NCBI GenBank assembly: GCA_021286645.1
Contig: JAJTBZ010000105.1
Coordinates: 1 to 55,366, forward strand
Source: Ignavibacteria bacterium
GTDB lineage: Bacteria; Bacteroidota; Ignavibacteria; Ignavibacteriales; Ignavibacteriaceae
Length of the DNA stretch: 55,366 bases
Reading direction: 5' to 3'
In this document: positions 42,827-53,137 of the stretch, piece after piece
How the letters are laid out: each line of letters opens with the position of its first letter
How positions within the stretch are numbered: the first letter of the stretch is position 1
The notes under the pieces: generated by a model
Told to the model about the DNA's origin: nothing
The model's database searches: none
Seen by the model: only the letters and a program-made list of their open reading frames with translations
Program-made: the position numbers and the translations under genes

Positions 42827-44941
42827 ATGAACGGGTTTTTTGCAGGAGATTTCTTCATGAACAGATTACTGACGAAGCAATCGTTATTTTTTCCATTCTT
42901 ATTGTTTTTCTTACTGCTTCTTACTTCTCAATCCATATATTCACAGAACTTACTACCCAAACCGGATACATCCAGTACCCGTTTTTTTTACAGAGACACC
43001 ACCGGGAAAGTAACTTCCGTTTCGATTGGCGGAAGTTTTAACGAATGGGACAAAACCCGTAACAGAATGACATATGATCCGAGAACGGGCGTATGGTCGG
43101 GTACCGTACCAACCATAGCTGGTGTTGAATATAGTTATAAACTTGTTCTTAATGACTCGCTCTGGATAACTGATCCAAATGCCCCGGATATGACAGAGGA
43201 TGAATGGCGAAATGGAATAATTGTTCCCCAGGAATACGGAAAACCTTATATTCGCTCATCCTTTCCTGCATTAAATAAACGAGTAATAAAGATAGATTCC
43301 GTGTATTTACAATTGGAATCTGATAAAGCCCCTGTCGATACTTCTTCAATAAAAATTGTTTTTAATGGTATCCCGATGCCTCATTTTCGTACAAGCCTTA
43401 ACGGGAATGTTGCGCTAAGGGTAAAAGAATTTCTCAATGAAGGTGAAAATAAACTTGTTGTAACCTTTGCCGATTTGAAAGGCAATTGTAAGGCAAATCA
43501 GGTTATCAAATTCTTTTATGATATCGGATTAGATTCAATCTCAACGCCATGTTATTTTAATTCGTCCAGGATGTACGAGGTGTATCTGCGCTCTTTTGGT
43601 GATTCAGTAAATCTGGGTGGGTTTAAGGCCATTACTAAGAAATTAGAATATTTGAAGGACACATTAGGAGTTAACATACTGTGGTTAATGCCCTTCCAGG
43701 AATCGAATACCGAGCACGGCTATAATGTGACAGACTACTACAAAGTAGAAAAAGATTATGGTACCAGAGAAGATTATCTCAATTTCATCCGTAAGTGCAA
43801 AGAAAAAAATATAAAAGTCCTTATGGATTTTGTTATCAATCATACTGACAGTACTCATGAGTATTTTCTGGACGCGTACCACAACCCGGGCAGTAAATAT
43901 TCAAGTTGGTATCAGTTTACGAACATGGAAAACACTGATTGGTATCATTTCGGGGTTGAGAGAAAAATGCCAAAACTGAATTTTGATAACCGGGATGTAC
44001 AGGATTATTTTATAAAAATCGCCTTGTATTGGATGGATCCGTTAGGTGATGGCAGTTGCACTGATGGAATTGATGGTTTCCGATGTGATGCTGCCAAAGA
44101 GATACCTCATTCATTCTGGAATAGATTTAGAAGTGTTATTAAATCAAAAAACAGAAATGCAGAGATTCTTGGCGAAGTATGGGATAACGCTAATTTTTTA
44201 ATACCCTTCTATAAAAATGAATTTGATGCTCTTTTTAACTATCCATTGTTATATGCGCTCGACGAGTATATTAACAGGAATGATATATCTGCGTTAACGA
44301 AGCGTTTTCATGATTTCTCATCGTTATATCCTGCAGGCTACCAAATGGTAACCTTTTTAGCAAATCATGATAATAGCCGTGCCGCTTCCCGATATTCGTC
44401 ACCGGACAAGTATAAGTTGGCGATGTGTATGTTATTCACATTACCGGGAACGCCTATGATATATTACGGTGATGAAATTGGAATGGCTGGTAAGGCGCAA
44501 CCACCAGAAAATGTACGGTTACCAATTAACTGGAGCGAAGTACACCGGCAGATTAAGGATTCTCTTTCAATCCTGACATTTCATAGAAAGCTTATTTCTC
44601 TCCGAAATACAGTGCCTGCTCTTTCGGTACCATTTGATCGAAATAACAATTCCTTAGAATTTTTATCTACCGATGCCCCGGGCGTATTGGCATATCTTCG
44701 GCGTGATTCCTCCGACACATATATTGCAATAGTAAATAATACGGGAAGAGTTATTCGCGACATAAATGTTGAACTACCCTCAAGATTGCAAAAATCTTCT
44801 TCTGCTACAGAGATATTTTCGTACAATGCATTTACTACGAATGTTGAATCCCCCACTTTGGATATTCAAGGGAAATTCCTCAATTTGCATAATAAAATTT
44901 TACAATCCTGTAGTTTTCTCTTAATTAAAATTACTCACTAA
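42827..44941 (+). CDS. Exported alpha-amylase family (GH13) enzyme with E-set/CBM48 domain
   Basis: 704 residues. Two starts are credible: ATG 42827 (GGAGG seven bases before) and ATG 42857 (AGGAG eight bases before). The second gives a tighter signal peptide (MNRLLTKQSLFF..., cut near YSQ at about 39). An N-terminal glycogen-binding/E-set domain (about 50-135, with VSIGGSFNEWD) precedes a GH13 barrel: region I DFVINHT (334-340), region II GFRCDAAKE (D421), region III EILGEVWD (E450), region IV FLANHDNS (D515). It should cut alpha-1,4-glucans outside the cytosol to feed the transporter genes that follow at 44963. Confidence 0.93.
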   Translation: MNGFFAGDFFMNRLLTKQSLFFPFLLFFLLLLTSQSIYSQNLLPKPDTSSTRFFYRDTTGKVTSVSIGGSFNEWDKTRNRMTYDPRTGVWSGTVPTIAGVEYSYKLVLNDSLWITDPNAPDMTEDEWRNGIIVPQEYGKPYIRSSFPALNKRVIKIDSVYLQLESDKAPVDTSSIKIVFNGIPMPHFRTSLNGNVALRVKEFLNEGENKLVVTFADLKGNCKANQVIKFFYDIGLDSISTPCYFNSSRMYEVYLRSFGDSVNLGGFKAITKKLEYLKDTLGVNILWLMPFQESNTEHGYNVTDYYKVEKDYGTREDYLNFIRKCKEKNIKVLMDFVINHTDSTHEYFLDAYHNPGSKYSSWYQFTNMENTDWYHFGVERKMPKLNFDNRDVQDYFIKIALYWMDPLGDGSCTDGIDGFRCDAAKEIPHSFWNRFRSVIKSKNRNAEILGEVWDNANFLIPFYKNEFDALFNYPLLYALDEYINRNDISALTKRFHDFSSLYPAGYQMVTFLANHDNSRAASRYSSPDKYKLAMCMLFTLPGTPMIYYGDEIGMAGKAQPPENVRLPINWSEVHRQIKDSLSILTFHRKLISLRNTVPALSVPFDRNNNSLEFLSTDAPGVLAYLRRDSSDTYIAIVNNTGRVIRDINVELPSRLQKSSSATEIFSYNAFTTNVESPTLDIQGKFLNLHNKILQSCSFLLIKITH

Positions 44942-44962: not shown

Positions 44963-47173
44963 ATGAAAAAAATACCAATTTTACTGGCACTGTTATTCAC
45001 TGCTTTTTTCTTTTTCGGATGCGGCAAAAAGGATAAAGCTGATGAAATAGTGATCTGGCATAATATGCGTCCTGAAGAAACTGCGCGGCTTCAGAAGCAA
45101 TTGGATGCATTTATGAAAATAAATCCCGGAATAAAAGTACTTCAATTATTTAAGGAAACGGAAGAAATGAGATCCGGGTTTATCGTGGCTGCAATAGCAG
45201 GCCAGGGACCCGATCTGGTTTACGGGCCTTCAGATCAGGTTGGACCGTTTGTAGAAATTGGGATTGTGAAAAAACTTGATGAAATTTTTCCACCGGATTA
45301 TTTGAAACATTTCAATAAGCAGGCCCTGATATATACAAATGGACACCTGTGGCAGATTGCCGATAAATTGGGGAATCATCTTACATTAGTCTATAATAAA
45401 AAGCTTGTCCCTGTTCCGCCATCAACCGATGAAGAACTAATTGAAATTGGTAAAAAACTTACAATTGATAAAGATGGTGACGGGAAAATTGATCAGTATG
45501 GAATTGTATGGAATTATACTGAACCATACTTTTTCGTTCCGTTTCTTACCGGGCATAACGGCTGGGTAATTGATAGTAATCGCCACCCAACGCTTAACAC
45601 ACCGGAAATGATAGCCGGCTTAAAATTTATGCGCGATCTTCGTGATAAGTATAAAATTATTCCGCGTGAAGCCGATTACAACCTTGCGGACGCGCTTTTT
45701 AAGGAAGGCCGTGCAGGAATGATGATTAACGGAGACTGGTCATGGAGTAGTTATGGTGCTGCAGGAATTGATTACGCGATTGCTCCCCTGCCGAAGATAA
45801 CTTCAACCGGTAAATTTTGTGCCCCGATGATCTCGCCCAAGGGATATTCCATTAATAACAAGGTTCAGGGTGAAAAGTTGGCGAATGTAAAAAAGCTGAT
45901 TGAATACCTCAATACACCTGAACAGCAATTGGAAACTGCCCTGCTGACAAAAACATTCCCTACAAGGGAAGAAGCATATAATGACCCCAAATTAATCGCC
46001 GATCCAATCTTACGTAATTCAAAAGCACAAATTGAATTAGGTATTCCACTGCCTATTGTTACGGAAATGCGTGCTATTTGGGATGCAATGCGCCCTCCGT
46101 ACCAGGCTGTACTGGGCGGCAGTATGACTGCGGAAAATGCAGCCAAACAAATGCAGGCTGAAGCCGAAAAGAAAATAGCTGAACTTCGGGAAGATATTTC
46201 GAACCCCATTGAAGGTATTATTATTCAGGTTGTGCTTCTCGCGGTAGTATTGGTTTCAATATTCATGGTACGCAAAAGTATAGTGCAGTTTATAAGGAAT
46301 CTGAGAAAAGATTCATTTGCATATATTTTTGCAATGCCGGCACTTCTCATAATGTTTGCTGTCATTATATATCCGTTTTGTTATAATATAATCCTGTCAT
46401 TTTCCAATATGAGCCTTTCTCATATTAACAACTGGACAGTGATTGGTTTTGCGCAGTATATTCAGGTATTTAAAGAACCCTTGTTCTATCAAATATTCTT
46501 AAAAACAATTATCTGGACTGTAGTAAATTTGTTCTTCCATGTTACACTGGGAGTATTCTTAGCCCTCTTACTTAATAAAAATTTACCCGGAACCCCGATA
46601 TTCAGAACCTTATTAATTTTACCATGGGCTGTGCCACAGTATATTGTTGCCCTAACCTGGCGCGGAATGTTTAACTATGAATATGGCGCAATTAACCTTG
46701 TACTGAATTATCTGCATTTACCGGCAGTAGCCTGGTTAAAATCACCCACTGAAGCTTTTATTTCTGTAATAATAACCAATATATGGCTTGGTTTTCCTTT
46801 CATGATGATTATCGCGTTAGGTGCTTTACAAAGTATACCGGCAGAATTATATGAAGCAGCAGATATTGACGGGGCAAAATGGTACCATAAACTAACCCAA
46901 ATTACGATACCATTAATAAAACCTGTAATGGTACCCGCTATAACACTCGGTGTTATCTGGACATTTAACAATCTTAATATTGTATGGTTGGTTAGTAATG
47001 CCGGAGAGCCTTCTGATCAAACACATATTCTTGTATCATTCGTATATAAAGCAGCTTTCAATCTTTACCGATATGGGTATGCTGCCGCCTTTAGTGTTGT
47101 GCTATTCCTGATATTATTATTATTTGGCACTACATTTCTTCGCAAAACTAAAGCTACCGAATCAGTTTATTGA
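44963..47173 (+). CDS. MalE-MalF fusion: sugar-binding protein plus ABC permease
   Basis: 736 residues. Residues 1-20 are an export signal ending in a lipobox-like FFFGC (C20; the -3 residue is Phe, so lipidation is uncertain). About 25-410 is a family-1 solute-binding protein resembling MalE, with GRAGMMINGDWSWSS and AIWDAMRPPYQAVLGGSMTA. An extra TM (about 413-435) brings the chain into the cytosol. About 445-730 is a MalF-type permease with six TMs and the EAA loop (YEAADIDGAKWYHKL, about 629-643). Fused order is the periplasmic receptor first, then the channel half, so the binding protein is tethered. It sits 21 bases after the amylase and overlaps nothing. The malG gene follows. No ATPase is encoded here. 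Confidence 0.93.
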   Translation: MKKIPILLALLFTAFFFFGCGKKDKADEIVIWHNMRPEETARLQKQLDAFMKINPGIKVLQLFKETEEMRSGFIVAAIAGQGPDLVYGPSDQVGPFVEIGIVKKLDEIFPPDYLKHFNKQALIYTNGHLWQIADKLGNHLTLVYNKKLVPVPPSTDEELIEIGKKLTIDKDGDGKIDQYGIVWNYTEPYFFVPFLTGHNGWVIDSNRHPTLNTPEMIAGLKFMRDLRDKYKIIPREADYNLADALFKEGRAGMMINGDWSWSSYGAAGIDYAIAPLPKITSTGKFCAPMISPKGYSINNKVQGEKLANVKKLIEYLNTPEQQLETALLTKTFPTREEAYNDPKLIADPILRNSKAQIELGIPLPIVTEMRAIWDAMRPPYQAVLGGSMTAENAAKQMQAEAEKKIAELREDISNPIEGIIIQVVLLAVVLVSIFMVRKSIVQFIRNLRKDSFAYIFAMPALLIMFAVIIYPFCYNIILSFSNMSLSHINNWTVIGFAQYIQVFKEPLFYQIFLKTIIWTVVNLFFHVTLGVFLALLLNKNLPGTPIFRTLLILPWAVPQYIVALTWRGMFNYEYGAINLVLNYLHLPAVAWLKSPTEAFISVIITNIWLGFPFMMIIALGALQSIPAELYEAADIDGAKWYHKLTQITIPLIKPVMVPAITLGVIWTFNNLNIVWLVSNAGEPSDQTHILVSFVYKAAFNLYRYGYAAAFSVVLFLILLLFGTTFLRKTKATESVY

Positions 47174-47193: not shown

Positions 47194-48027
47194 ATGAACA
47201 CCAAGAAATATTTTATTAACGCGTTAACATATCTGGTATTAATTCTTTTTACACTTATAGCGTTATACCCGATAATCAACGTATTCACGATATCAATTCG
47301 ACCTGGTGATAAATTGCTTTCAACTTCATTGGCAATTATACCCGATAATTGGACATTGCGGCAATACGCTGAACTTTTTGTAAAAAGGCCTTTCATGTTA
47401 TGGATAATGAATTCGGCCATTATTTCAGCAACGGTTACCCTTACCGGAGTTGCCTTAGCATCAACAGCAGGATATGCCCTTTCTCGCTTTCAATTTGTTG
47501 GAAAACAAAGCAGCATGTTGGCCCTTTTAACAACACAAATGTTTCCTGCCACAATGCTTCTTCTCCCGATGTATATAATGTTGATAAAGCTCCATTTAAT
47601 AAACAGTTATCTGGGAATTATTATTATTTATTCTGCTACTGCCCTTCCATTTTGTGTTTGGCAAATGAAAGGTTACTACGACACAATACCGTATAGTCTG
47701 GAGGAAAGCGCACGAATTGATGGATGCAACAAATGGCAGGCATTCTACAAAATTATCCTGCCGTTGGCTACGCCCGCACTGGTAATTACTGCACTGTTTT
47801 CATTCATGACAGCCTGGAGCGAGTATATTGTTGCTGCCCAAATTCTACAGGATACCAGTTTATACACATTGCCAATCGGATTAAAATCATTCGAATCGAA
47901 TTTATCAACCGAATGGGGCTTATATGCTGCTGCATCCCTTATTGTAAGTGTTCCTGTAGTTGTTTTATTTGTGGTGTTAAGTAAGTGGCTGGTTTCCGGT
48001 TTAACCTTAGGAAGCGTGAAAGGATAA
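47194..48027 (+). CDS. MalG-type sugar ABC transporter permease
   Basis: 277 residues from the ATG at 47194. The frame opens earlier (TTG at 47170), but the MalG-type start with a charged N-terminus before TM1 (NTKKYFINALTYLVLILF) supports 47194. Six TMs and the EAA loop ESARIDGCNKWQAFYKIILP identify the inner-membrane subunit of the maltose-type importer. It should pair with the permease half of the preceding fusion. Its stop lies two bases before the MFS start. Confidence 0.93.
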   Translation: MNTKKYFINALTYLVLILFTLIALYPIINVFTISIRPGDKLLSTSLAIIPDNWTLRQYAELFVKRPFMLWIMNSAIISATVTLTGVALASTAGYALSRFQFVGKQSSMLALLTTQMFPATMLLLPMYIMLIKLHLINSYLGIIIIYSATALPFCVWQMKGYYDTIPYSLEESARIDGCNKWQAFYKIILPLATPALVITALFSFMTAWSEYIVAAQILQDTSLYTLPIGLKSFESNLSTEWGLYAAASLIVSVPVVVLFVVLSKWLVSGLTLGSVKG

Positions 48028-48029
48028 TA

Positions 48030-49265
48030 ATGCGGGAGATTCAAAAAAAATTATCGAACAGTTTTTTTGTTTTGCTTAGCCTGCCATCAACGGCAATGGG
48101 CTTTGCATTATCCATACAAATATCAGCTCTAAGCTGGATACTTTCAACACAATATCATTTGGATATTGAAAAGGTTGGCTATGTGTGGGCTGCCGGTCCC
48201 TTAGCAGGAATTTTCGGTCAGGTAATTGTAGGATTGATCAGCGATAAAGTTTGGTTTTGGGGTGGAAGACGCAGGCCCTTTATACTCATTGGCGGACCAC
48301 TTGCAGCTCTTATGCTTTTAGCCCTGCCTAATATTCATATAATCAGCGGATTTTTAGGTATATCCAATTTAGTGATTGTAGCAACAATTGTTGCTCTTAC
48401 ACTCGATTTGGCAATTAATATCAGCTTTAACCCCACGCGCTCAATTATAGCAGATGTAACCCCCGAAGGCGATATACGGACTAAGGGATACACATGGATG
48501 CAATCGATATCCGGTTTATTCGGTGTACTTGCATACTTTATAGGAGCGGCGTTTTCAAATTACCATTTGATTTATTTTGGAATTTTTCTGGTATTGGGTT
48601 TTTCTGTAATTCCGCTTTTTTACATTACTGAACCAAGAGAACTTCAAACGACATCTGAAGCTGCTACAAAAACCGGAAAGAAGAATGTTCAGTGGGGCCA
48701 ATTAATGCAACTCTTTTTCGCTCATGGTTTTTCCTGGATAGGTGTACAAACAATGTTTGTGTTCATTTTTGCATTTATACAGCAAAAACTCAATCCTGCA
48801 AATTCAGATGGTATAGGAAAAATTATCTCGATTTCCTTTCTCGTTCTTAATACAGTTGGGTTTATTTTACCGGCCCTGTTTTTAGAAGAGTTTGCAAAAA
48901 AAATTGGTCGGGTAAGAACTCATATGATAGCAGTGGCAATAATGGCCGCCGGATATCTGGGTATAGCCCTATTCGTGGTCAATCCATATATGCTATATCT
49001 AATGATGGCTGTTGTTGGTATAGGTTGGGCTGCAATTGTTAGTCTGCCTTTTGCTATACTCTCTGAAAAAGTAGACAAAACACGAATGGGATTCTTTATG
49101 GGGATTTTTAACCTCTCGGTAGTTATCCCTCAGCTTTTTGTGAGTCTGGTACTTGGAAAAGTAATTAAAGATATTCCTGATAAAAATATAATTTTTTTCA
49201 TAAGTGCTGCCTCATTGGCAATTTCTGCAGTTTTATGGACCACAGTGAAAGAACGAAAGAGCTGA
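48030..49265 (+). CDS. SLC45-like sugar MFS transporter
   Basis: 411 residues from the ATG at 48030 (AGGA five bases upstream); an earlier in-frame start at 47985 would overlap malG and add residues unlike the family. It has 12 predicted TMs. The SLC45/sucrose-transporter motif WGGRRRPFILIGGPLAAL follows TM2, and FNPTRSIIADVTPEGD follows TM4. Such proteins are proton-coupled carriers of sucrose, maltose or other disaccharides. It is the fourth gene of the maltodextrin set, giving two import routes side by side. A UUCG-loop terminator follows. Confidence 0.9.
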   Translation: MREIQKKLSNSFFVLLSLPSTAMGFALSIQISALSWILSTQYHLDIEKVGYVWAAGPLAGIFGQVIVGLISDKVWFWGGRRRPFILIGGPLAALMLLALPNIHIISGFLGISNLVIVATIVALTLDLAINISFNPTRSIIADVTPEGDIRTKGYTWMQSISGLFGVLAYFIGAAFSNYHLIYFGIFLVLGFSVIPLFYITEPRELQTTSEAATKTGKKNVQWGQLMQLFFAHGFSWIGVQTMFVFIFAFIQQKLNPANSDGIGKIISISFLVLNTVGFILPALFLEEFAKKIGRVRTHMIAVAIMAAGYLGIALFVVNPYMLYLMMAVVGIGWAAIVSLPFAILSEKVDKTRMGFFMGIFNLSVVIPQLFVSLVLGKVIKDIPDKNIIFFISAASLAISAVLWTTVKERKS

Positions 49266-49732: not shown

Positions 49733-52700
49733 ATGAGGAGACATGGTTTACTCTTCAATCTGTTACTCGTTACTCTCTTTTCCAGTTTTGGCTATGCTCA
49801 AATGTACCAGGATTGGAAATGGGTACAACCAAGACCCCAGGGTAACCAGTTACGATATATTAAAAGATTTGATGCGAACACGTGGTACGCAGTTGGTTTC
49901 GCTGGAACTTTTATGAAGACAACAGACGGCGCGAATTCGGGAACCGTTCAACATAATGTTGGCAAAAAGAACGCTGCCGGTCAGTATTCGAATTTATATG
50001 ATGCGCATTTCTTTGACAAGCAGAATGGAATTGTATGCGGTACGTTAGGTACTATCGCTAAAACTACGAATGGCGGTTCCACATTCGATACCATTCCCAA
50101 TCTTGGCACAACCATTACCTACTATCAACTATTCTTCCCTTCAAATACCGTAGGCTTTGCCGTTGGTTCGAGTGGCACAATTATGAAAACTACTGATGCA
50201 GGAGCCACCTGGAACTCAGTTTCCTCGGGTGTAACCACTGCATTTTATGATATCTGGACCTCAAGTGATGCTCAGTTAATTGTTATTGCAACAACTTCGG
50301 GCAATGTTCGCCGTTCAACCGATGGCGGCGCGACATGGGCATCGGTAGCAACAGGTACAAGTGTTACGTTGAATAAAGTTCATTTTATAGATAATTTAAC
50401 AGGTTTCGTTGTTGGTACTGGTCAGTGCCGTGTAACCACTGATGGTGGAGCCACATGGGCAGCTGCAACAACTGGTCTTTCAACTTCATCCACCTATTGG
50501 GATATAGATAATATTGGAAGTAAAGTGTACTTAACTGGTTCCAGTACTGCTATATACCGTTCTACCAATAACGGTACCTCATGGGATACTGTCGGCTTCC
50601 TCGCACCATATCAGCAGCAGCCATGGACCAGTACATATTATGCTTCTGATTTTGGGTCAACCGATGATACCGTTGTAACAGTTGGAAGTTTTGGTTTATT
50701 GAACCAAAGAACCAGTATTAACGATCATTTTATTTATACTCAATTATTCCGCCCTGGCCAGATCAATGAATTATGGACCAATTCCACGGGCAGCAAGATA
50801 ATTGGTGTTGGTGCACCATCCATTACCGGTTCCTCATTCGATCAATTTTTCCTCTCAACCGATTATGGCCAGAGCTGGCAATATCCTCAAGTAGCAAAAA
50901 ATGGTATTTTGAGGAATACCCCGGTTGAAGTTGAGGAAAAAGTTGAATCAGATGACAGCAGAATTGCTAACCCCAAAAGTGTAACATCTACTGCAACAAT
51001 CAACCATTTACAAATGATTGATGAAAATCTTGGCTTTGCAGTTGGTACGAACAGTGCAGTTTACAAGACAACTAACGGTGGTCTTCGTTGGGATTCTATA
51101 GCAACAACCATCACCGCTGCACAATCCTTAAGTAAAGTATGTTTTGTTAATGCAAACACCGGCTGGGTTTTCTCGAAAACCACAACTGCTACCGGAACAA
51201 TTTGGAAAACTACCGATGGCGGCGCTACCTGGGCACAGCAAATATTAACCGGTCAGACCGGCAGTAATGTTCAAATATGGTCAGCTCATATGTTGAATGA
51301 AAATTATGGATGGGTGTGTAACTATTTCCCACAACCATTTAAAACTACGGACGGTGGTGCCACGTGGACTGCCCAATCTACGGTAGACGGCTACAATGCA
51401 GGATATTTATATGATATCCAAATGTTTGACACAACAAAAGGTTACATTGTTGGCGGTACAGGTCGTATCTATAAAACCACTAATGGTGGTGCTAATTGGG
51501 ATACCGTTTCAGTTCCAACAAGAAGTTATATATTCTATAACCTCCATTTTCTTAATCCAAACGTAGGCGTTGTTGCAGGAAGCGGTGGATTAATGTTATT
51601 GACAAAAGATGGCGGCGCGACATGGGAAGCACAAAATAATGCGGGAGCAAGTAACTATGCTCTTACAGCTTCTGCTGTAAACAATGGTAGCGTAACGTTC
51701 TATACTGGCGGTTCCAACGGATATACTTTTAAGAGAGATGTAACTTTATCTCAACCGGCAACATTGGCAATTACTTCACCGGTTGGTTCGGAAGTATGGG
51801 GTGTTGGTTCGCAACACGCAATTACATGGACATCTACAAGTGTAACAAATGTTGGAATACAGTATACGACGGATAATGGAACAAACTGGACTTCGGTTGT
51901 AGCCTCTACACCGGCTGCTTCCGGTTCCTACGCATGGACAGTTCCCAACACACCTTCGGTCAATTGCAAGGTAAAAGTATTTGATGCATCAAATACTTCT
52001 TTAGCATCTGTTAGTGCTGCTGTTTTCACTATCCAGTCATGCCCCTCATACAGTTATACTGCTGGCTGGAGTATGGTCTCAGTTCCTGTAGCTGCAAGTA
52101 ACATGGCAGCTGCTTCGTTATTCCCGGGTGCTTCATCTCAGGTATTCGCGTTCAATAATGGATACTCTGCACAAACAACTCTCGAGAATGGCAAAGGTTA
52201 CTTTGTTCGTTACGATAACCCGGCAAATCTTAGCTTCTGTGGTTCACCAATACAACTTTCAACACCAATTAATGTCAATGCCGGCTGGAATATGATTGGC
52301 CCATACGGAAATGATGTACCTGTAACCGGAATTACAACCGTGCCGGCAGGAATAGTCAATTCAAATTACTTCGGTTTCACTTATGCCAGTGGTTACAGTT
52401 CTGAATCAACCTTAAAGAGTGGCAAGGGATACTGGGTACGCGTTAGCCAGGCTGGTAGTATAAAACTTGCTATACCTACAGAAAAATCAGCAGTTCAAAA
52501 CTTAGCAACTAATACCAGTAATATATCTATCACTTTAACGGATAATAGTGGACAGAGTTCGGTGTTATATTCTGCGCTTAATAACAGTGACCTGAATAGA
52601 AATGATCTGCCCCCTGTTCCTCCAAACGGCATCTTTGACGCACGTTTTGCTTCGCAGAGAAATGCTGAAATGTTGCAGGGTGCTTCTCAAACAATCCAAT

Positions 52701-53137
52701 TAAGTAATGCTTCTTATCCTGTAACAATCGCTTCTAAAAATGCGACCTTTACAGTTAAGGATGCAGCAACAAATGGTAGATTGGTAAATATGGTTGTCTC
52801 TGACAGTCGTACAGGTTCAATCACCAATTCTGCTGTTCAAGCATTAGTTGTTTCAATGGTATCTAAAACACCAAAGAGTTTTGAATTGAATCAAAACTAT
52901 CCTAACCCGTTTAACCCAACAACAACAATTAATTTTGCTGTACCGGTTAAATCTCAGGTTACCCTCTCAATCTATAATCAATTGGGCCAAAAAGTAGCTA
53001 CATTGGTTAATGGCGAGATGGAAGCTGGTTTCAGAAGTGTTACATGGAATGCTTCAAATATGGCTTCCGGTGTTTATTTCTATGAATTACGTGCAGGTAA
53101 CTTCACTTCTGTGAAGAAACTTGTTCTGATGAAATAG
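49733..53137 (+). CDS. BNR/YCF48-repeat surface protein with T9SS sorting domain
   Basis: 1134 residues, strong ribosome site. A signal peptide (about 1-22) is followed by about twelve beta-propeller repeats with the KTTDGGATW type motif (to about residue 650). Such repeats are found in photosystem-assembly factor YCF48 and BNR proteins; here they make one or two seven-bladed propellers. Next comes an Ig-like domain (about 675-765; GVGIQYTTDNGTNW type), two copies of a GWSMVSVPV / GWNMIGPYG domain (about 780-905), and the C-terminal sorting domain with NYPNPFNPTTTINFAVP and KKLVLMK. It is exported by the type IX system; substrate and binding partner are unknown. Confidence 0.9.
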   Translation: MRRHGLLFNLLLVTLFSSFGYAQMYQDWKWVQPRPQGNQLRYIKRFDANTWYAVGFAGTFMKTTDGANSGTVQHNVGKKNAAGQYSNLYDAHFFDKQNGIVCGTLGTIAKTTNGGSTFDTIPNLGTTITYYQLFFPSNTVGFAVGSSGTIMKTTDAGATWNSVSSGVTTAFYDIWTSSDAQLIVIATTSGNVRRSTDGGATWASVATGTSVTLNKVHFIDNLTGFVVGTGQCRVTTDGGATWAAATTGLSTSSTYWDIDNIGSKVYLTGSSTAIYRSTNNGTSWDTVGFLAPYQQQPWTSTYYASDFGSTDDTVVTVGSFGLLNQRTSINDHFIYTQLFRPGQINELWTNSTGSKIIGVGAPSITGSSFDQFFLSTDYGQSWQYPQVAKNGILRNTPVEVEEKVESDDSRIANPKSVTSTATINHLQMIDENLGFAVGTNSAVYKTTNGGLRWDSIATTITAAQSLSKVCFVNANTGWVFSKTTTATGTIWKTTDGGATWAQQILTGQTGSNVQIWSAHMLNENYGWVCNYFPQPFKTTDGGATWTAQSTVDGYNAGYLYDIQMFDTTKGYIVGGTGRIYKTTNGGANWDTVSVPTRSYIFYNLHFLNPNVGVVAGSGGLMLLTKDGGATWEAQNNAGASNYALTASAVNNGSVTFYTGGSNGYTFKRDVTLSQPATLAITSPVGSEVWGVGSQHAITWTSTSVTNVGIQYTTDNGTNWTSVVASTPAASGSYAWTVPNTPSVNCKVKVFDASNTSLASVSAAVFTIQSCPSYSYTAGWSMVSVPVAASNMAAASLFPGASSQVFAFNNGYSAQTTLENGKGYFVRYDNPANLSFCGSPIQLSTPINVNAGWNMIGPYGNDVPVTGITTVPAGIVNSNYFGFTYASGYSSESTLKSGKGYWVRVSQAGSIKLAIPTEKSAVQNLATNTSNISITLTDNSGQSSVLYSALNNSDLNRNDLPPVPPNGIFDARFASQRNAEMLQGASQTIQLSNASYPVTIASKNATFTVKDAATNGRLVNMVVSDSRTGSITNSAVQALVVSMVSKTPKSFELNQNYPNPFNPTTTINFAVPVKSQVTLSIYNQLGQKVATLVNGEMEAGFRSVTWNASNMASGVYFYELRAGNFTSVKKLVLMK

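Follow-up and report, generated by a model that had tools for sequence, protein, structure and literature searches.

We report a single open reading frame, here called malEF, in which a MalE-like sugar receptor, an added transmembrane helix and a MalF-like permease follow one another in one chain. The window (the whole stretch of DNA analyzed, 55,366 nucleotides from an Ignavibacteria bacterium) also carries the gene of a MalG-like partner (Table 1). The chain very probably supplies the receptor and one channel half of a type I maltodextrin ABC importer, with an exported receptor, a helix that returns the chain to the cytosol, a MalEF-MalG-MalK2 complex, and an origin from adjacent genes separate from that of the Bdellovibrio fusion. 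The sequence directly shows the receptor, the added helix, a permease core that includes the EAA loop, the adjoining MalG-like half and, at another place in the genome, an ATPase of the MalK type. The first-pass annotation had taken the fusion to be unusual as a kind, which does not hold: a MalE-MalF fusion of Bdellovibrio is already characterized, and what is added here is a comparison of fused and split orthologs. Bdellovibrio MalE was reportedly found fused to MalF by Licht et al. in 2019 (Res Microbiol 170:1-12). The available text of PMC7756565 describes MalE fused to MalF as transport-competent. For Ignavibacteria in the open-access literature, the available text of the Melioribacter roseus paper (PMC3534657) contains no mention of a fused sugar transporter.

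Table 1. Features of the malEF locus (positions within the window; residues are those of malEF)
Feature	Position	Strand	Evidence
GH13 alpha-amylase/cyclomaltodextrinase-like enzyme, probably exported (signal by eye)	42827..44941	+	Pfam, NCBIfam
malEF, single-chain receptor-permease fusion, 736 aa	44963..47173	+	Open frame, Pfam, NCBIfam, relatives
Signal sequence with lipobox-like F-F-G-C (Cys20)	44963..45022	+	Sequence
MalE-like maltodextrin-binding domain, residues 28-410	45044..46192	+	Pfam, NCBIfam, 6FFL fit
Linker, residues 411-450, with extra transmembrane helix and basic amphipathic stretch	46193..46312	+	Hydropathy, model, relatives
MalF/UgpA-type permease core, residues 451-731	46313..47155	+	Pfam, NCBIfam, alignment, fold matches
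EAA loop, residues 628-651	46844..46915	+	Invariant residues in alignment
malG partner permease	47194..48027	+	Pfam; NCBIfam MalG model (5.1e-52)
MFS/GPH-type sugar symporter, after malG	47985..49265	+	Pfam, NCBIfam

The malEF frame runs from ATG to stop through 736 codons with no interruptions. Three Pfam domains score above their cut-offs (SBP_bac_1, residues 39 to 322; SBP_bac_8, 47 to 350; BPD_transp_1, 527 to 721). The NCBIfam models for MalE (NF007011; residues 11 to 400, 1.5e-40, 139 bits against a cut-off of 291) and MalF (NF008232; residues 493 to 731, starting at profile position 264, 1.6e-49, 169 bits against a cut-off of 392) also match; malEF is homologous to both and is not one of these equivalogs. 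The continuous frame spanning a binding protein and a permease, as first proposed from the sequence, is thus borne out. The order of receptor, added helix and MalF-like permease is that of the Bdellovibrio-type loci L059 and L060, and the receptor ends near residue 410, the position of the stop codon in split relatives. The EAA motif is the coupling site for the ATPase, and its presence in the permease, also claimed earlier, is confirmed by E631, A632, A633, T648 and P650, which are invariant in the permease alignment. With an SBP_bac_1/8 receptor and two BPD_transp_1 permeases bearing EAA loops, the system is of the CUT1 (maltose-like) type. As for the complete six-helix permease of the first-pass annotation, five of the six helices exceed the hydropathy threshold, and the sixth (about residues 544 to 563, broken in the model) is drawn from the model and homology.

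Between the two domains, a hydropathy peak covers residues 418 to 436 (mean, 2.97), and the added helix spans about residues 415 to 437; AlphaFold places a single helix over residues 415 to 449 (pLDDT, about 65 to 77), in agreement with the one extra transmembrane segment claimed there. The 40-residue linker that contains it (residues 411 to 450) is missing in split relatives. Hydropathy peaks of at least 1.66 were present in the linkers (40 to 51 residues) of all 15 fused named loci, and peaks of 2.33 to 3.17 in 10/10 fused chains of the window's family; because three genes were counted in both sets (L002, L003 and L005 duplicate L123, L132 and L112), the total comes to 22 distinct fused genes, every one of them with the helix. 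A linker-type helix was sought by hydropathy at the N terminus of 56 split permeases and found in none: 42 have no room for another helix, as 4 to 19 residues precede the core, and the 14 with at least 20 residues there show no peak. Such a helix is demanded by topology, because the exported receptor has its end outside whereas the permease has to start from the inner side, and its occurrence in every fused chain measured and in no split permease examined is in line with the view that the extra segment makes the fusion topologically consistent. Model confidence is moderate in the membrane part (mean pLDDT of 75.7 for residues 406 to 736, with residues 672 to 702 below 50), the fold of which matches SugABC chain A (Z, 21.8) and MalFGK2 chain H (MalF; Z, 20.5). 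The added helix was considered as a possible counterpart of MalF helix 2, and no such correspondence is claimed: alignments of MalF to the model (residues 406 to 736) begin at model residues 31 to 46 (MalF 45 to 54), which leaves the greater part of the added helix outside the superposition.

The receptor model superposes on 6FFL, the maltotriose-bound MalE domain of Bdellovibrio bacteriovorus, with a Z of 50.9 (rmsd, 1.9; 381 residues). This entry, which we take to belong to the work of Licht et al. 2019, is the nearest solved structure (45% identical to the malEF receptor) and the best match by sequence and by fold. Eighteen sugar-site positions of MBP were compared; nine are identical in malEF (N12, D65, E153, P154, Y155, F156, W230, W340 and R344) and nine differ (D14, K15, E44, W62, A63, R66, E111, M330 and Y341). 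6FFL also differs from MBP at eight of the latter nine, and it mostly agrees with malEF at the checked positions. From homology and gene neighbors, we infer that the substrate is maltodextrin. It is unlikely that another alpha-glucan or sugar, such as trehalose or cyclodextrin, is carried in place of linear maltodextrins; trehalose/maltose- and cyclodextrin-binding proteins also fit the receptor model, the permease is closest in fold to a chain of mycobacterial LpqY-SugABC, which was solved with trehalose too, and half of the checked MBP sites differ, but the top receptor match is maltotriose bound and a GH13 enzyme adjoins malEF.

The N terminus of malEF is probably exported and lipidated at Cys20, to judge from its sequence. 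Lipobox residues -3/-2 (F-F) are atypical, with L-x-G-C in the orthologs L003, L006, L007 and L008, and a Cys occupies the place of Cys20 in the nine family chains that have an N terminus. By a simple pattern, a lipobox-like Cys occurs in 66 of the 72 split receptors with a readable N terminus, the other six having a hydrophobic start without the Cys; among the fused chains it is present in 15/22 (L091 by eye, N-S-G-C) and absent in 7/22, counts that omit one fused and five split rows without a readable N terminus. No link between lipobox loss and fusion is drawn from these numbers (7/22 fused against 6/72 split without one), because the cases sit in few clades. Since most split relatives carry a lipobox, their receptors are probably already membrane bound, and tethering by lipid probably preceded fusion. 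The predicted removal of free receptor by the fusion therefore stands in part: malEF is the only SBP_bac_8 receptor found in its genome, but the contrast with the largely lipobox-bearing split relatives is weaker, and the step would be smaller here than in E. coli. In five split loci (L102, L104, L099, L119 and L081), the receptor lacks a lipobox and has a hydrophobic start that looks uncleaved, and the permease opens with a short amphipathic, basic stretch resembling the end of the fused linkers.

The GH13 gene ends 21 bases upstream of malEF on the same strand; such a gene lies immediately upstream of the fusion in L087, L091, L123 and L132 also, and a symporter gene follows malG in L112 and L114 also. 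The malG frame opens at 47170 (TTG), overlapping malEF, and the symporter frame opens at 47985 (GTG), overlapping malG; by eye, ATG codons at 47194 and about 48030, respectively, are likelier starts. The one OB_MalK ATPase detected in the genome (G000:C31), which also has ABC_tran and TOBE_2, is encoded on a contig other than that of malEF; we infer its pairing with malEF from its being the only MalK-type ATPase found, the gene being unlinked. The genome has six BPD_transp_1 matches, two of them at the malEF locus. A profile search with PF13416 (SBP_bac_8) gave one match, malEF itself (assembly given as 99% complete), and a protein search gave no second match, which is consistent with the earlier claim of one receptor per transporter. 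Free receptors are not absent throughout the lineage, because distant sugar receptors (23 to 25% identity) are present as separate proteins in fused-chain relatives (e.g., G001, G007, G016, G018 and G032). Within malEF, counts of internal promoters or terminators that might give the receptor alone equaled those of shuffles (27 against 28.8, and 7 against 6.9).

The same chain was found in 10 of the 37 searched genomes of the window's family (own genome included), the nine others being 68 to 79% identical; in G008 it lies in a single-contig assembly, and two are contig-end pieces (L002, without the C-terminal end; L010, without the N-terminal part, as the G033 gene is spread over two contigs). 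No split ortholog was detected in the other 27 family genomes (best among the matches listed: E, 1.8e-56; 28% identity), and the best among the matches listed for 22 genomes of other families in the order had an E of 1.8e-46 and 34% identity. A phylum sample of 296 genomes gave 30 loci, namely the window, two family members and 27 other orthologous loci; outside the window's family, the orthologs are split in 26/26 loci with both ORFs, and L052 is cut by a contig end. In split loci, the receptor ends at residue 410 or close to it (typically KIKEMNE), and the permease ORF aligns from about residue 442 to 459; the gap between the two runs from -4 to 156 bases (14 loci). That an assembly or sequencing error joined two such genes is extremely improbable. 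Split relatives do have both genes side by side, but no support for an error was found, residues 411 to 450 are conserved in ten genomes, single-contig G008 among them, and the gap is shorter than the 120-base linker in 12/14 split loci; together, linker conservation and gap lengths rule out an artifact or frameshift at residues 410 to 440. Nor are homologs always two genes, as they are two in most loci examined and one in others.

Scanning 84,980 species genomes yielded 247 loci, the best 80 of which were examined: 15 are single chains, L061 is a further single chain truncated near a contig end, 63 are split (56 with a separate permease ORF and seven receptors ending at about residue 410 without a recognized permease ORF), and L134 is cut, its class undecided. 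Fractions of these named loci are not population frequencies, because the first row of the query was a Bdellovibrio receptor and the sample leans towards it. Single chains were found in Bdellovibrionota, Planctomycetota, Gemmatimonadota, Fidelibacterota, Ignavibacteriota and records labeled simply Bacteroidetes or bacterium (taxa from record titles). In none of the 15 genomes with a fused named locus did a further match exceed 34% identity; coexistence of a fused gene with a split ortholog was thus not observed. L062, L064, L111 and L121 have a receptor stop near residue 410 and no permease ORF recognized in the 1.5 to 4 kb downstream, and L086 and L095 have long N-terminal extensions (904 and 862 aa in total) with starts that are probably misplaced or, in L095, upstream repeats.

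A tree of 103 loci was built from receptor and permease columns with the linker excluded (eight duplicates and nine loci without a permease ORF omitted); all trees were "quick" or fasttree, without bootstraps. The 23 fused rows form three groups, namely clade A (L086, L114, L118 and L135; linkers of 49 to 51 residues), clade B (Bdellovibrio-type L059 to L061, L136, L083 and L095; 40 to 41 where measured) and clade C (the window and 12 relatives; 40 where measured). This tree requires a minimum of three fused/split changes, and starred branches force two or more of these. The receptor-only tree also needs three and the permease-only tree five (both fasttree, without L061 and the outgroup), and a concatenated tree without 11 rows (eight long and three outgroup) needs three. 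Holding all fused rows as one clade, a group set by the trait, costs 110 log-likelihood units (AU p, 4e-5), and holding the window and Bdellovibrio clades (B and C) together costs 92 (AU p, 2e-4, an optimistic value because the group was named after tree inspection). Clades A and B held together are 1.3 log units better (AU p, 0.52); three separate fusions are not claimed, as A and B can be joined at no cost. With one clade and B plus C rejected, and A and B joinable, at least two fusion origins are likely, that of the window clade separate from that of the Bdellovibrio clade, and a third is unneeded.

Descent of all fused clades, that of Bdellovibrio included, from one ancient single chain, with the split forms arising by fission, is unlikely. 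Near-equal linkers in the window clade (40) and the Bdellovibrio-Planctomycetes clade (40 to 41), a basic, amphipathic end shared by several linkers, and the possible unity of A and B, which lowers the number of fusions, would fit it, and change counts are root independent and alone cannot separate gain from loss. Both AU rejections speak against it, as does the nesting of the window clade among split clades on starred branches, because of which fission alone needs many separate events. A short amphipathic stretch also opens several split permeases (e.g., L102 and L104), and the linker end held in common may therefore be the old permease N terminus. Separate fusions remain our preferred reading, and the relatives of the window clade bear on a further route, horizontal acquisition of the single-chain gene from another fused lineage. 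Transfer would fit the scatter of fused forms among Bdellovibrionota, Planctomycetota, Gemmatimonadota, Fidelibacterota and Ignavibacteriota, but is very improbable given that the sister clade of the window clade consists of split genes with 64 to 75% permease identity to the window, against 50 to 68% for the fused loci of clades A and B; in a variant, the linker alone may have been transferred.

More distant single chains of the same order were found among 40 weaker loci (L011 to L030 and L139 to L158, the latter picked partly for long frames): L014, L139, L140, L142 and L143 (receptor-half E, 1e-10 to 3e-18), each with a hydrophobic peak ahead of the first permease helix, and a sixth, L147, by Pfam. 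These CUT1-type chains, which come from related genomes, are about 26 to 32% identical to malEF in aligned parts. On balance, we think it fairly likely that in one orthologous maltodextrin-importer family, the receptor and MalF half were joined at least twice, at the same boundary and with one helix each, probably from lipid-tethered receptors, that the first five distant chains are built alike, and that the whole forms a natural fused/split series.

Among known systems, Bdellovibrio-type L059 and L060 resemble malEF in having receptor, extra helix and permease in one chain with malG separate. They differ in that malK directly follows malG, whereas malK is unlinked in the malEF genome; L059 to L061 lack the lipobox Cys, unlike malEF, and the Bdellovibrio-type chains belong to the other clade. 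The E. coli MalFGK2-E system shares homologous parts, the EAA loop, and MalG and MalK partners with that of malEF, but its MalE is a free periplasmic protein, whereas the malEF receptor is fused. E. coli MalF has a large periplasmic insert (P2), which the malEF permease lacks; fusion as compensation for the missing insert was rejected, because the aligned split permeases lack it too and no special link between fusion and insert exists. GlnPQ and OpuA also carry the receptor on the transporter chain, with permease families, domain orders and receptor numbers other than those of malEF. Mycobacterium LpqY-SugABC is like malEF in permease fold (chain A), and its receptor is a lipid-anchored, separate protein. 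In the available text of PMC9045158, receptors "fused to the permease" are one of three arrangements. The receptor is normally in large excess in ABC importers; for maltose in E. coli, the same paper gives a 30- to 50-fold excess. Cooperativity is cited for a transporter with fused substrate-binding domains of the GlnPQ/OpuA kind in the available text of PMC8276074.

In the proposed working of the single chain, the N terminus would be exported and probably lipidated, the receptor would fold outside the inner membrane, and the added helix would return the chain to the cytosol, the side from which the permease has to start. One tethered receptor would serve each MalEF-MalG-MalK2 complex. The receptor would bind maltodextrins, which the neighboring GH13 enzyme may release, and would hand the sugar to its own channel without a diffusing receptor pool. 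The most likely origin of the single chain is the joining of two neighboring genes in an Ignavibacteriales ancestor, an event distinct from the fusion in Bdellovibrio. A maltodextrin receptor fixed one-to-one to its transporter, together with split sister genes, would make up matched pairs for measuring directly how tethering affects an ABC importer. Elsewhere in the window, positions 49733 to 53137 encode a protein of 1,134 aa that, by eye, looks secreted and has repeated BNR/Ycf48-like motifs and a C-terminal sorting-type end.
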